From Saprospiraceae bacterium (lineage in GTDB: Bacteria; Bacteroidota; Bacteroidia; Chitinophagales; Saprospiraceae), in NCBI GenBank assembly GCA_020852155.1, contig JADZBJ010000287.1:1-36944 (forward strand): DNA of 36,944 nucleotides. The letters run 5' to 3'. This document shows, piece after piece, positions 2,903 to 35,979 of this stretch (position 1 is the first letter of the stretch; each line of letters opens with the position of its first letter). The notes beneath the pieces are model-generated. The model was not told where the DNA came from, did not search any database, and saw nothing but the letters and a program-made list of their open reading frames with translations. The position numbers and the translations under genes were made by a program.

Positions 2903-3748
2903 TCATTCTTCATTGCCAAATTTTCCGCCGGTAGGCGGGCGATAGGATTCAAATGGAATTTTCAGCAGTCGGCCGATGTCGGAGTGTTCATGTTTTTCCA
3001 TGTAGGTATCAATACCAAAAACAATATCCTCCTGTTTCATCTCTGCATAGGTACCGAATAAACGATCCCAGAAGGAAAAAATATTGCCATAATTTGTGTC
3101 GGTATAAGGCAAAACATAATGATGATGCACGCGATGCATGGAAGGCGTGACCAAAAACCAGCCCAGCGTTTTTTCGAGCCATGCCGGAAACTGAATATTG
3201 GCATGATTGAACTGTGACAACCCCGCCGACAAACTCTGGTACATCATGACGACGCTGATGGGCGCACCGGCCACAATTACACCCAATACTGTAAATACAA
3301 AACGAAAAACGCTTTCGCCCGGATGGTGACGATTAGCCGTCGTGGTGTCCACATTCGGGTCGGTATGATGAATCAAATGAAAACGCCACATCCACCTGAC
3401 ACGGTGCTCGGCCCAGTGAATCAGGTAAGCGCCTATCAGATCAAGCAACAATAAACCCACGATAGCGTAAAGCCATAAAGGCATTCCCGGCAGCCATTGC
3501 AAAATTCCAATGCGTTCGGCCGAAACCCAGTCGCAGGCACGCAGCAGGATAAAGGCCATCAGGAAATTGATTAAAATGGTCGTAGCCGTAAAAAACAGGT
3601 TCAGTCCCGTGTGCGGCGCTTTGCGATATGCCTTGGTGAATACCGGAATGATCTGTTCCAGTGACATAAACAGCGTCAGTCCACCAAGGATGATCGCCGC
3701 CCGATGCGACGAAGGAATATGGGCAAAGTACTCCAGTATTGACTCCAT
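2903..3748 (-). CDS. Sterol desaturase / fatty acid hydroxylase family membrane protein
   Basis: Multiple TM segments and His clusters HWAEHRVRWMWRFHLIHHTD, NRHHPGE, HRVHHHY. Confidence 0.85.
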   Translation of the reverse strand: MESILEYFAHIPSSHRAAIILGGLTLFMSLEQIIPVFTKAYRKAPHTGLNLFFTATTILINFLMAFILLRACDWVSAERIGILQWLPGMPLWLYAIVGLLLLDLIGAYLIHWAEHRVRWMWRFHLIHHTDPNVDTTTANRHHPGESVFRFVFTVLGVIVAGAPISVVMMYQSLSAGLSQFNHANIQFPAWLEKTLGWFLVTPSMHRVHHHYVLPYTDTNYGNIFSFWDRLFGTYAEMKQEDIVFGIDTYMEKHEHSDIGRLLKIPFESYRPPTGGKFGNEE

Positions 3749-4239
3749 TTTTTATGTGGTTAGAATGCTCGCTGGCGCTCGCGTTTGAATGGCGCTGCGC
3801 GCCGTTTGATGTGGTTAGAATGCTCGCTGGCGCTCGCGTTTGATGGCGCTTGCGCGCCGTTTGATGTGGTTTGATGTGGTTTGAAATGGTTTGAATGCTC
3901 GCTGGCGCTCGCGTTTGAAGTTGTTTGATATTTGTAGGGCGGTGGATTGGAGGCAAATTTCAGGCTTTTTTACCACATTACCGAAATGGTTTTGAAAACT
4001 GTGTCATGAATTCCTCAAGCCTGAAATCCGCTTTTCAAGCCACATTCAAACGGCGCACAAGCGCCATTCTAACAACCTCAAACGCGAGCGTCAGCGAGCA
4101 TTCAAACAACTTCTAACAACTTCAAACGGCGCGTCAGCGCCACTCAAACGCGAGCGCCAGCGAGCATTCTAACTATTTCTAACTACATCAAACCACTTCA
4201 AACGGCGCGCCAGCGCCATTCAAACAATTTCAAACCACT
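3749..4239. repeat. Intergenic inverted-repeat region (locus A): forward GCTCGCTGGCGCTCGCG / GGCGCTGCGCGCC modules on the left, reverse-complement modules on the right
   Basis: Three gctcgctggcgctcgcg copies in 3767-3915; inverted gcgagcgYcagcgagc and ggcgcgYcagcgcc modules in 4045-4220; inner inverted repeat ATTTCAGGCTT (3957-3967) / AAGCCTGAAAT (4017-4027). Confidence 0.9.
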
Positions 4240-5289
4240 TCAAATCCCCAGGGAAACGAATACCGGATAATGATCGGAATAGTTGCCGCGAACCGTCCGG
4301 CAGGAGAAAGTTTTCAGGCTTTTTTCAGTTAGAATGTAGTCAATGCGCAGCAAAGGCAGTACGCCGGCGAAAGTAGTGCCCAGTCCCAGGCCTTTTTCCC
4401 GAAAAGTATCGCTCAGGCCACCGGACAACACGGCATAGACATAAGAGTTGGGTGTGTCGTTGAAATCACCGCACAGCACGACCGGATATTTGCAGGCATT
4501 GATATGCTCCCTGAGGCGAATGGCTTGTTCAGCCCGCACGCTGGTAGCCGTTCCAACGCGGCCCAGTACCGAGCCGATGTCGTGCCAGGTTTTTTCTTCA
4601 TCCAGTTCACCCTCATCCAGCACTTTCTCAGTCTCAACAGTCACTTTGTTTGATTGCAGGTGGACATTATAAACGCGAATGATTTTCCCTTCCGCCAGTT
4701 GAACGTCGGCCCAAAGCGTCGAGTTGGCCGTTTTACCAAAGGGCACATCACCGCCGGCGACAATAGGATACCGGCTCAGGATAACCGTGCCTTTTTTTAG
4801 GTTGAACGTATGCGGATAGTTCATTTTTTCTGCCAGCATACGGTAAAATTTGCCACTGGTTTCCTGTGTACACAACACGTCGGGGAATCCGTTTTCCTGT
4901 AAAAAACGCGCGTAGTTGGATACCATTTTCTCGCGCAGGGCATCGGTTACTTTTTGTCCGCGAAAAAGCCCTCCGAGGTTGTGGGTCGCTACCGTGATGG
5001 CGCTTTCAGGCACTACATCTTTCCCAAAATCAAAACCGATAAAACCAGTGATGTATGCCCAGCCAAAAGCCAGAATGCCCGCGTGATAAATGGCGAAACG
5101 ATTCCAGCGCCAGAGCCAGACGCCCATCAAAAACAGATTGGCCAACAGCAGCCACGGGAACGCCGTCCCGAAAAAAGAAAACCAGGAAAATGTAGTCGGA
5201 TTGACCTGCGGACATATATAAGCAAACAAGGTCAGCAGGATGATGACCGCGCTGATCAGTTGTACGGAATGTCGCAGGAGGGTTCGCAA
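4240..5289 (-). CDS. Endonuclease/exonuclease/phosphatase family protein with N-terminal TM helices
   Basis: VATHNLGGLF, CTQETSG, VVLCGDFNDTPNS, YILTEKSL, SDHYPVFVSL motifs of the EEP fold; TTG start at 5289. Confidence 0.85.
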   Translation of the reverse strand: MRTLLRHSVQLISAVIILLTLFAYICPQVNPTTFSWFSFFGTAFPWLLLANLFLMGVWLWRWNRFAIYHAGILAFGWAYITGFIGFDFGKDVVPESAITVATHNLGGLFRGQKVTDALREKMVSNYARFLQENGFPDVLCTQETSGKFYRMLAEKMNYPHTFNLKKGTVILSRYPIVAGGDVPFGKTANSTLWADVQLAEGKIIRVYNVHLQSNKVTVETEKVLDEGELDEEKTWHDIGSVLGRVGTATSVRAEQAIRLREHINACKYPVVLCGDFNDTPNSYVYAVLSGGLSDTFREKGLGLGTTFAGVLPLLRIDYILTEKSLKTFSCRTVRGNYSDHYPVFVSLGI

Positions 5290-8076: not shown

Positions 8077-8376
8077 AAAAATGATGATTGTTAAGTTGAA
8101 AGTTGAAGTGGTTGAAGGAGTTGAAAGTTGAATGTGGTTGAAGGAGTTGAAGGTTGTTGAAGTAGTTGAAGTGGTTGAAGTGGTTGAAGGTTATCATTCT
8201 CAAAAAGGGTGTCATCCTGAGCGTCAGCGAAGGATCTGCTCCCCACGAAGGGGTATGTTTCACATCTGTTTGGCCAGATCCTTCACTGCGTTCAGGATGA
8301 CAATCTTTTTGAGCAGGCAAATACCCGCTTTTCAACCTTCAACCATTTCAACCTTCAACAATTTCCAACCAAAAAA
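8077..8376. repeat. Intergenic inverted simple-sequence arms (locus B): TTGAAGTGG-type C-free arm 8077-8194 and G-free CTTCAACC-type arm 8328-8376
   Basis: gttgaaggagttgaaagttgaatgtggttgaagg... (118 nt without C) versus ttcaaccttcaaccatttcaaccttcaacaatttccaacc (49 nt without G). Confidence 0.9.
8211..8301 (+). repeat. GTCATCCTGA palindromic interspersed element, copy 1
   Basis: gtcatcctgagcgtcagcgaaggatctg...cagatccttcactgcgttcaggatgac; arms extend as CTCAAAAAG (8199) / CTTTTTGAG (8313). Confidence 0.9.
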
Positions 8377-8446: not shown

Positions 8447-8521
8447 CGCGTAAATCCGCGTTTCATCTGCGTAAATCCGTGTTTTACAAAATCTGCGTAA
8501 ATCCGCGTTTCATCCGTGTTT
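8447..8521. repeat. CGCGTAAATCCGCGTTTCATCTG interspersed repeat abutting the 3' end of the S74 gene
   Basis: cgcgtaaatccgcgtttcatctgcgtaaatccgtgttttacaaaatctgcgtaaatccgcgtttcatccgtgtt; 3-4 degenerate units, overlapping the stop codon at 8520. Confidence 0.8.
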
Positions 8522-14933: not shown

Positions 14934-14992
<59 letters not shown>

Positions 14993-15447: not shown

Positions 15448-15534
<87 letters not shown>

Positions 15535-25465: not shown

Positions 25466-25846
25466 GATGGCGCTGACGCGCCATTTGATATGGTTAGAAA
25501 TTGTTAGAATGCTCGCTGACGCTCGCGTTTGATATAGTTTGAATTGCGCTTACGCGCCGTGTGAAATGGTTAGAAATTGTTAGAATGCTCGCTGACGCTC
25601 GCGTTTGAAGTTGTTAGAAGTTGTTACTGAATATGTTCTCTGTGTACTCTGCGTTGTACTCTGTGTACTCTGTGTTAGAAAAAAGGGAGTGTTCGGCAGT
25701 GTTCAGATTTCCAAGTTGGTATTTCTACTGAATCGGCGCGCCAGCGCCTTCTAACCACTTCAAACGCGAGCGCCAGCGAGCATTCAAACAATATCTAACC
25801 ACATCAAACAATATCGAACAATTTCAAACGGCGCGTCAGCGCCTTC
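25466..25846. repeat. Intergenic inverted-repeat region (locus E), second occurrence of the locus A modules
   Basis: Left: ggcgctgacgcgcc, gctcgctgacgctcgcg (x2), TTTGA/TTAGAA spacers; right: ggcgcgccagcgcc, gcgagcgccagcgagc, ggcgcgtcagcgcc; centre has ctctgtgtactctgYgtt direct repeats. Confidence 0.92.
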
Positions 25847-33497: not shown

Positions 33498-35891
33498 ATG
33501 AAACAAACGTTAATCCTTTTCCTTTTTCTCCTGACCCAGGTAACCATTGTTTCGGCGCAGCAAGCGACGGAAATCTATTCAGATGTGCAAGTGTCGCTTC
33601 GGAATGGCAAAACCCTGGCACAAGTTGCCCGTACGGGCGTTGATGTAGATCACGCCATTCATTACCCCGGCAGGTACGTACAGGTTGTGGTGAATCAAAA
33701 AGAACTGCAACAACTCCGCCAGCAGGGTTTTGAATGTCAGGTCATGATTGATGACCTGTCAAAGCACTACCTCGAACACAAAAACGATCCTGCGCAGCCG
33801 CGCGGTCAGGATTGCCAGACGAGTACCAGTCAAAATAACTGGCAGACGCCAGCCAACTATACCTATGGTACGATGGGCGGCTACCACACCTACGATCAGA
33901 TGATGGCCGTGCTGGACGATATGCACGCCAAATTCCCGAACCTGATCTCGGCCCGCGCCATCGTCAGTGATACCATCCTGACACATGAAGGGCGTCCGTT
34001 GTGGTATGTAAAAATTTCGGACAATCCCGATCAGGACGAAGCAGAACCAAAGGTTTTATACACCGCCCTGCACCATTCCCGGGAGCCTAATTCGGCGTCG
34101 CAGTTGTTGTTTTATATGTGGCATTTGCTCGAAAACTACACCACCGACCCGGCTATCGGCTATTTGCTCAACAATGAAGAATTGTATTTTGTGCCCTGCG
34201 TCAATCCTGACGGCTACATCTACAACGAAACGACCAACCCTGAAGGCGGCGGCTTCTGGCGCCTGAACAGACGCCCCAACGACGACGGTACTTATGGTGT
34301 TGACCTCAATCGCAACTATGGCTGGGAATGGGGCTATGACGACGATGGCTCGTCGCCGGTCCCCGGCAGCCAGACCTATCGCGGCCCATGGGGATTTTCA
34401 GAACCTGAAACCCGCACCCTGCGCGATTTTCACCGTAAAATTGATTTTACGTTCACCTTGAATTACCACACACGCGGCAACCTGCTGATCTATCCCTGGG
34501 GCTACAGCGACCAGTTGGCCGACTCGTCATTTTTTAAGTTTTCAAGATTCTTTACCCGCGAAAACCATTACACCACCGGAGTAGCCACCGAAACAGTGGG
34601 CTACAACGTAAACGGCACTTCCGACGACTGGATGTATGGCGAAACAGGTTCGATGGCATTCACGCCGGAAGTCGGTTTGCCGGCGGATGGTTTCTGGCCG
34701 CCGGAATCCAAAATTGACGGATACAACAAGGACAATGTGTGGCAAAACCGCGTCATGGCGCTTTCAGCCCTGCGCTTTGGTGAGGTGGAAGACCTGAATG
34801 GCGAACTTTTATCCTCGTCAAGCCTGAATATTGATCTGGCTGTGCGTCGCTGGGGATTTCAGGATGGCGCTTTCACGGTGTCCATGACGCCCCTGACCAG
34901 CAATGTGGTTTCTGTGTCAACCAGCCAGCCCGTGGTGAATTTGCAGCAGTTTGAGCAGAAAGTCGTCACATTCAATGTCGTGCCGGCAGCCGGTGTGGCC
35001 AATGGCGAAATCATGCAGTTTTTGGTCAAATTAGACAATGGCTTCTACACGGAAGTGGATACGCTGACCAAACATTTCATTGCCGGAACATCCATGACAG
35101 CACTTAATGACGACTGCTCAAATCAGCAAAACTGGCAAGGCGACTGGCAGATCACAACCGAATCCTTTGTGTCCGCGCCAACCAGTATGACGGATTCTCC
35201 AAATGGCGACTATCCGCCGAACGTGACGTCGCTCTGCACTACTGATGCGCTGGTGAGTTTGCCAGATAATGCCCTGAACCCGCAGTTGAGGTTTTTCGCT
35301 CGGTGGGCATTTGAGGAAGATTACGACTACGCCGCCGTGCAGGTGCAATCCAGTTCCGGCTTTTTTGAAAGGCTTTGCGGTCGTTACACAGAGCCTGGCG
35401 TCATTAGCCAGCCTGAAGGAGAACCTGTATTTGATGGTATTCAGGAAACGTGGGTCGAGGAGTGCATGAGCCTTTCAGACCTGATCGGTGAAACATTCCA
35501 GTTGAGTTTCGAACTGGGCGCCGACGGTTTCCTGCAATACGATGGTTTTTATTTCGATGACGTGCGCATCACTTACGTCAATCAGGAAAGCGGCGTGGAA
35601 ACCATTCTGCCGCTTGAGCGTTTCCGCCTGCTGCAAAACCAGCCCAATCCGGCGTCAGATTTCACGACCATACGCTGGAATCAGGCATTGACTCAGGGCG
35701 ACAAAGACGCTGAGGCAATATTGTTGGTCGTGAATGCGCTGGGTAAAACCGTGCTGATGCAAACCGTTCAGGTTAACACAGAATCCTCCTGCCAACTGGA
35801 CGTTCGTTCGATGGCACAAGGCGTTTATACTTGTTTTGTGAAAACTGCTTCGGGGCAATCAGCACCCGTCAAAGTGACGGTACTGCGTTGA
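33498..35891 (+). CDS. Secreted M14 zinc carboxypeptidase with T9SS type A sorting domain
   Basis: Preferred start MKQTLILFLFLLTQVTIVSAQ at 33498; YTALHHSREPNSASQ, FVPCVNPDGYIYN, GVDLNRNYGWEWG, FTLNYHTRGNLLIYPWG, FTPEVG; C-terminus NQPNPASDFTTIRW...QGVYTCFVKT. Confidence 0.93.
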   Translation: MKQTLILFLFLLTQVTIVSAQQATEIYSDVQVSLRNGKTLAQVARTGVDVDHAIHYPGRYVQVVVNQKELQQLRQQGFECQVMIDDLSKHYLEHKNDPAQPRGQDCQTSTSQNNWQTPANYTYGTMGGYHTYDQMMAVLDDMHAKFPNLISARAIVSDTILTHEGRPLWYVKISDNPDQDEAEPKVLYTALHHSREPNSASQLLFYMWHLLENYTTDPAIGYLLNNEELYFVPCVNPDGYIYNETTNPEGGGFWRLNRRPNDDGTYGVDLNRNYGWEWGYDDDGSSPVPGSQTYRGPWGFSEPETRTLRDFHRKIDFTFTLNYHTRGNLLIYPWGYSDQLADSSFFKFSRFFTRENHYTTGVATETVGYNVNGTSDDWMYGETGSMAFTPEVGLPADGFWPPESKIDGYNKDNVWQNRVMALSALRFGEVEDLNGELLSSSSLNIDLAVRRWGFQDGAFTVSMTPLTSNVVSVSTSQPVVNLQQFEQKVVTFNVVPAAGVANGEIMQFLVKLDNGFYTEVDTLTKHFIAGTSMTALNDDCSNQQNWQGDWQITTESFVSAPTSMTDSPNGDYPPNVTSLCTTDALVSLPDNALNPQLRFFARWAFEEDYDYAAVQVQSSSGFFERLCGRYTEPGVISQPEGEPVFDGIQETWVEECMSLSDLIGETFQLSFELGADGFLQYDGFYFDDVRITYVNQESGVETILPLERFRLLQNQPNPASDFTTIRWNQALTQGDKDAEAILLVVNALGKTVLMQTVQVNTESSCQLDVRSMAQGVYTCFVKTASGQSAPVKVTVLR

Positions 35892-35979
35892 TTGGTTATT
35901 TGTTGAATTGGTTATTTGGTTATTTGTTTTCATCATTCAACAGATAACCAAATAACCAGTTCAACAAATAACCAATCAA
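35888..35979. repeat. 39-bp inverted repeat (locus D) filling the convergent intergenic gap, 14-nt loop
   Basis: TTGATTGGTTATTTGTTGAATTGGTTATTTGGTTATTTG / cagataaccaaataaccagttcaacaaataaccaatcaa, 2 mismatches. Confidence 0.95.

Follow-up and report, generated by a model that had tools for sequence, protein, structure and literature searches.

Locus A, the 491-nt spacer at positions 3749-4239 of the window (the whole stretch of 36,944 nucleotides analysed here, contig C288 of a MAG of 3.63 Mb in 485 contigs that is 78 % complete), is one of dozens of loci of an intergenic, composite repeat family specific to its lineage. The arrays of this family are anchored at ORF borders, where they often keep register with the stop codon, and their G/T-rich strand reads outward from the gene. 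That arrays start at borders, often keep the stop-codon register and point the G/T strand outward at stops and starts alike is newly described here. The original prediction for locus A had missed the outward polarity, the register, the strict order of the modules and the existence of the same architecture with other units in congeners.

The mosaic fills the entire spacer between the EEP gene and the membrane protein gene, which are both on the minus strand with the membrane gene downstream (Table 1). Several proteins of the window carry type IX secretion sorting domains, which points to a source within the Bacteroidota. ORFs were predicted by a home-made hexamer caller and certain start borders are therefore uncertain. 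The two-module mosaic that had been predicted is real, with modules, orientation and spacers as described: three forward copies of module 1 and two of module 2 on the left face two reverse copies of module 1 and three of module 2 on the right. The inverted repeat predicted in the core is likewise present, and the cores of other loci differ. A second locus of the same family lies in the window between convergent genes, its left array (+) following the stop of a dehydratase gene and its right array (-) preceding the stop of a paaC-like gene. Another repeat, CTCTGTGTACTCTGCGTTGTACTCTGTGTACTCTGTGTTAGAAAA, is found in the cores of several array loci (window 25634-25676; L051, L059, L067 and L070).

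Table 1. Features of locus A and its neighbourhood, and the second locus in the window (window coordinates)
Feature	Position	Strand	Remarks
Flanking gene, membrane protein	2903..3748	-	weak match to ornithine lipid hydroxylase OlsE model (fatty acid hydroxylase-like)
Left array	3749..3930	+	GTTWGA 10-mers with 3 module 1 and 2 module 2 copies; outward from start codon of gene 2903-3748 (-)
Module 1	3767..3782	+	GCTCGCTGGCGCTCGC
Module 2	3791..3803	+	GGCGCTGCGCGCC
Module 1	3822..3837	+	
Module 2	3845..3858	+	GGCGCTTGCGCGCC
10-mer spacer run	3859..3896	+	GTTTGATGTG GTTTGATGTG GTTTGAAATG GTTTGAAT
Module 1	3897..3912	+	
Unique core	3931..4044	.	separates both arrays; absent from other loci
Core inverted repeat, left arm	3957..3967	+	ATTTCAGGCTT
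Core inverted repeat, right arm	4017..4027	-	AAGCCTGAAAT
Right array	4045..4239	-	outward from stop codon of EEP gene 4240-5289 (-)
Module 2	4052..4065	-	GGCGCTTGTGCGCC
Module 1	4084..4099	-	GCTCGCTGACGCTCGC
Module 2	4128..4141	-	
Module 1	4150..4165	-	
Module 2	4204..4217	-	
Flanking gene, endonuclease/exonuclease/phosphatase (EEP)-fold protein	4240..5289	-	weak VanJ/ExoIII matches
Second locus, same family	25466..25846	.	convergent genes

Module 1 occurs eight times in the window, where dinucleotide shuffles lead us to expect 0.05 copies. Across the genome we found 113 matches to module 1 with at most one mismatch (one for the reversed-pattern control) and 124 matches to module 2 with its token (none for the control). 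The modules are thus not confined to the two loci of the window. The family appears to be limited to this lineage: among the 150 genomes searched only the source genome contains the module 1-token pattern, which is absent from 149 relatives including 41 congeners. Each of the 41 congeners has zero to two one-mismatch matches to the module 2-token pattern, which is background level, unlike the 127 of the source genome. In a collection of 84,980 genomes the module 1 pattern matched only twice, both times in haloarchaea. Viral contigs contain no match to the module 1-token pattern and 48 matches, mostly single, to the generic GTTTGA-N4 triple. The original prediction recognised no known family in the modules, and the Rfam search agrees in matching none; a tRNA search was likewise empty.

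We derived the grammar of the arrays from 64 parsed arrays on 0.70 Mb of contigs, the majority of which were picked for carrying modules. The repeating token is a 10-mer, GTTWGA plus four nucleotides, with GTTTGA counted 500 times, GTTAGA 126 and GTTGGA 24. The predicted spacer periodicity of about 10 nt extends to the whole family, since the filler is exactly 4 nt long in 384 of about 650 token-to-token gaps; the remaining gaps hold either module 1 (RTGCTCGCTNNCGCTCGC, usually 17-18 nt) or module 2 ((R)TGGCGCTNNCGCGCC, usually 15-16 nt). Helical phasing was considered as the source of the 10-nt period and rejected, as congener units span 6-14 nt.

Both modules had been predicted to be palindromic, which holds for module 2 and only in part for module 1. 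Module 2, GGCGC-TNNC-GCGCC, is a clean hairpin of 13-14 nt with a loop of 3-4 nt. Module 1 is 16 nt long and is built as GC(TC)GC-TNNC-GC(TC)GC, with a TGGC loop at locus A; it is an imperfect palindrome containing a direct repeat of GCTCGC, and because of this build it can fold only with a 2x2 internal loop. The two share the centre CGCT-NN-CGC and fold together with their flanking tokens as units of 27-29 nt. Their order is strict, in that module 1 can come before module 2 and module 2 never before module 1: in the 64 arrays there are no steps from module 2 to module 1 or from module 2 to module 2 (shuffled means of about 21 each), a single step from module 1 to module 1 (shuffled mean 17.6) and an excess of steps from module 1 to module 2 (41, compared to a shuffled mean of 21 and maximum of 34).

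The position of the arrays is set by the ORF border, be it a stop or a start codon. Read on the GTTWGA strand, 45/60 arrays have their 5' end no more than 20 nt from an ORF edge, and 4/54 their 3' end (p = 4e-14), with median distances of 9 and 223.5 nt respectively. The distances between array and stop codon cluster at -6, -5, -1, +4 and +16/17, which are the spacings predicted by the array grammar. Many arrays keep this register: the stop coincides with the TGA of a GTTTGA token or with the TAG in GTTAGA or in GTAG-TTTGA, or else the first token follows it after a gap of one filler length (4 or 16-17 nt). In the right array of locus A the first filler sits at the exact 4-nt spacing from the native TGA of the EEP gene. 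The original prediction had the array end supply this TGA (GGG ATT TGA). This is contradicted by relatives whose EEP genes have that end without an array (GGGATTTGA in G033 and G010, GGAATTTGA in G041), so the stop is native and the array begins at it rather than having created it. The homologous EEP border is free of arrays in all relatives examined except congener G005. The closest EEP homologues are 73 % identical, and the relatives are too distant for an empty-site comparison.

To assess polarity we took Tandem Repeats Finder arrays whose |G+T - A - C| was 0.2 or more and which had a border no farther than 40 nt away. Of 82 such arrays in the source genome, a count that includes the family's own, 77 have the G/T strand pointing outward (55/60 at stops and 22/22 at starts). 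Two congeners behave alike, with 22/23 in G021 (13/14 stop, 9/9 start) and 18/20 in G005 (11/12 stop, 7/8 start). A third, G009, has few arrays and just 6/10 outward, indicating that the pattern is not genus-wide. As a control, ordinary start borders have G-poor leaders and ordinary stop borders have no strand asymmetry; the polarity on the stop side is therefore a property of the arrays. Array-bearing spacers make up 12/44 convergent, 23/161 tandem and 4/56 divergent spacers, a weak deficit of the GTTWGA family in divergent spacers (4/56 vs 35/205 elsewhere, p = 0.09).

The GTTWGA mosaic is part of a broader class within the genus, as shown in two congeners: tandem arrays of short units at gene borders, with the same polarity and other units. 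Contigs of the source genome and of congeners contain many further border arrays of this kind, detected with Tandem Repeats Finder. In G021 and G005 the border anchoring and polarity are alike and the units are unrelated to the GTTWGA modules. In G005 the EEP gene is followed by an array of GGTTCGGAGGTTTGG, a core and a complementary array reaching the next start codon, and thus by the same design as at locus A made of an unrelated unit. The window itself contains further short-unit arrays. Between two minus-strand genes, positions 14934-14992 and 15448-15534 are pure (AATGATG)n and (ATTCATC)n (8.4 and 12.4 copies), facing each other; their units are complementary and they obey the outward rule. 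Another spacer between two minus-strand genes (8094-8370) holds GTTGAAG-type arrays and their complement (TTTCAACCTTCAAC), after which an GCGTAAATCCGCGTTTCATCT repeat lies at 8448-8514.

With moderate confidence, we read the family as a REP-like, locally amplified, lineage-specific composite border repeat that is copied between borders without the RAYTs found here and is probably either tolerated at transcript borders or of use there. Two GC-rich hairpin modules take the place of the 4-nt filler at intervals and in strict order, and the units would grow through local tandem duplication seeded at an ORF border. Copying from border to border may proceed via recombination or some trans activity other than these RAYTs; no mobilising enzyme or growth mechanism for the arrays was identified. 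At locus A one array runs out from the start codon (3748) and the other from the EEP stop (4240), and they meet around the unique core. We infer that arrays survive chiefly in convergent and tandem spacers since their orientation suits transcript borders, giving G-free leaders ahead of starts and hairpin-rich trailers behind stops. A positive role, whether in protecting 3' ends or in stopping read-through, is plausible.

More tentatively, it is conceivable that in some Bacteroidota a sequence-independent process grows border arrays, phase-locked to the stop codon or the pre-start leader and with G/T outward, while the units vary by species and spacer. The GTTWGA/GC-module mosaic would then be one lineage's version of a border-forming process rather than a repeat family in itself. 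Interspersed repeats are usually defined by their sequence; here the gene-relative position and the polarity are constant and the unit changes between species. If this is true in more genomes, it offers a concrete test between DNA-level growth at gene ends and selection at transcript borders. With its strict module order and stop-codon register, the family is also well suited for testing how a mosaic is put together in the absence of a matching RAYT.

An alternative that we regard as rather unlikely is neutral slippage, by which simple repeats would expand in spacers of every kind and be kept only at harmless sites. The units vary between species and loci, the EEP border of relatives is empty except for the unrelated unit in G005, and selection on pairing is not seen (below), all of which would be expected. 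Purging, however, predicts neither the fixed polarity at stop borders, which is absent from ordinary sequence, nor the stop-codon register, nor the strict order of modules.

Two outward arrays facing each other make the spacer of locus A a long imperfect palindrome, and its predicted RNA fold reaches -281 kcal/mol compared to -149 in shuffles (z = -21). Facing arrays might therefore be selected as giant stem-loops at transcript 3' ends, acting as bidirectional terminator, exonuclease barrier or insulator. Such a role gains from the distribution of long inverted arms, which on unselected contigs of three genomes occur in 10/27 convergent and 2/44 divergent spacers (p = 7e-4). It also gains from an 84-nt convergent spacer of the window (35889-35976, including both TGA stops) that is as a whole a near-perfect hairpin of GGTTATTTG units (-59.8 kcal/mol, z = -13.6), the GGTTATTTGG unit of which recurs in seven genomes of the genus but not in the other genera that were searched. 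The arms in G005, moreover, match mainly inside their own spacer. This last feature sets G005 apart from the GTTWGA family, in which two facing arms resemble each other no more closely than arms taken from different loci (p = 0.17 for the spacers and 0.47 for the module centres), and copying of an arm from the facing arm was rejected on this basis. Selection on arm pairing was rejected as well, as stem mismatches in tandem spacers are equally G-U (46) and A-C (48). Furthermore, 28/39 array spacers have only one arm, the divergent spacer L047 holds both, and our terminator scan found no GC-rich hairpin with a U-tract inside the arrays. The lack of locus-specific likeness and of a G-U excess suggests that the palindrome is mostly a by-product of polarity. 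We thus consider selection for a stem-loop unlikely, and the palindrome of locus A is best read as resulting from two outward arrays that are independent of each other. Bidirectional intrinsic terminators between convergent genes are similar in filling the spacer with hairpins right after the stop codons, whereas the arrays reach about 500 nt, are built of tandem units, miss the U-tract, are likewise found at start borders and within tandem spacers, and have mismatches without G-U bias.

The original prediction likened the layout to REP/BIME mosaics, in which the modules would be REPs moved by a REP-associated tyrosine transposase (RAYT) and the arrays would be BIME-like clusters. The likeness stands as far as it concerns a genome-wide interspersed mosaic: the modules are small, GC-rich, high-copy extragenic palindromes in two-module mosaics, direct and inverted. 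With their tokens they fit the size of REPs as high-copy extragenic palindromes of 20-40 nt, the bare palindromes being 13-16 nt and that of module 1 imperfect. RAYT-linked REPs are species-specific, and the restriction of the modules to one genome is what they would lead us to expect. Membership in a REP-RAYT system is the part that failed. The genome has five Y1 transposases, two above the IS200/IS605 cut-off and three closest to the REP-associated model, below its cut-off. We found no modules beside any of the five and no arrays of the GTTWGA family on their contigs, and mobilisation by a RAYT is therefore not supported, although in a genome that is 78 % complete a RAYT may be missing. The palindromes beside the Y1 genes are other sequences (GTTTCGCCGAACCCCGTTCGGCG on C259, GTCGAAACACCAGTTTCGAC on C291, GCGAGGC..GCCTCGC on C105 and CCCACGACTAAAGTCGTGGG on C253). 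The modules also lack the GTAG/CGTC tag that, according to the available part of PMC3733652, defines most REPs, and GTTWGA tokens flank them on both sides. As described there, REP/BIME systems with RAYT share with our family the high-copy small palindromes, the extragenic mosaics, the species-specificity and the gene-end bias; that part lists neither border anchoring nor polarity nor 10-mer tokens as REP features, and here the modules are fillers between GTTWGA 10-mers in border-locked arrays of a single polarity. Taken together, these results make a RAYT-driven origin improbable. The three Y1 genes closest to the REP model (L081 3110-3355, L079 9592-9840 and L080 10857-11054) each adjoin palindromes of their own, with tandem copies of GTTTCGCCGAACCCCGTTCGGCG at the L081 gene and GTCGAAACACCAGTTTCGAC at the L079 gene, and are apparently true REP systems of this genome.

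Quite improbable to us is a Rho-type border, in which the A/C-rich strand, the one presented to a polymerase on its way into an ORF, would be a rut-like loading site blocking untranslated or antisense transcription into genes. It would account for the identical polarity at starts and stops and for the deficit in divergent spacers. The inward strand has C > G in 64/64 arrays, and a basic rut criterion, with C at regular spacing and C > G across 78 nt, fits 60/64 inward vs 0/64 outward strands. That pattern is unspecific, however, fitting 24-69% of ordinary inward border flanks, and rut sites in leaders would endanger expression of their own gene.

Within the open PMC literature, the TAACTGA heptamer, an intergenic direct repeat of Beggiatoaceae, Cyanobacteria and some Bacteroidetes (PMC4679880), comes closest in position and orientation. 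In the available part of that report, the heptamers are short tandem spacer units lying mostly immediately upstream of start codons in one orientation, and GTTWGA arrays resemble them as tandem units at an ORF border in fixed orientation. The unit of our family is not the heptamer but the GTTWGA-N4 10-mer with inserted modules; the TAACTGA set, so far as described there, consists of a single 7-nt unit across phyla, is dominated by start borders and has neither GC-rich hairpin modules nor facing arrays. The minisatellite-bearing MITE of Porphyromonas gingivalis, from what the accessible sections of PMC4596501 describe, is similar in being intergenic in Bacteroidota and in combining inverted repeats with tandem units. 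Our family differs from it, as we found neither a fixed terminal inverted repeat nor a transposase partner and ORF borders set the ends; no MITE-like constant termini were seen among the array loci compared.

Two spacers in congener G006 (L088, about 1300-1650) have GTTTGA-type arms around a hairpin core, GGTAAC-YCT..GGCTT..-GTTACC. The inner pairs of the two hairpin cores differ in a compensating manner, CTC/GAG in one and CTA/TAG in the other.
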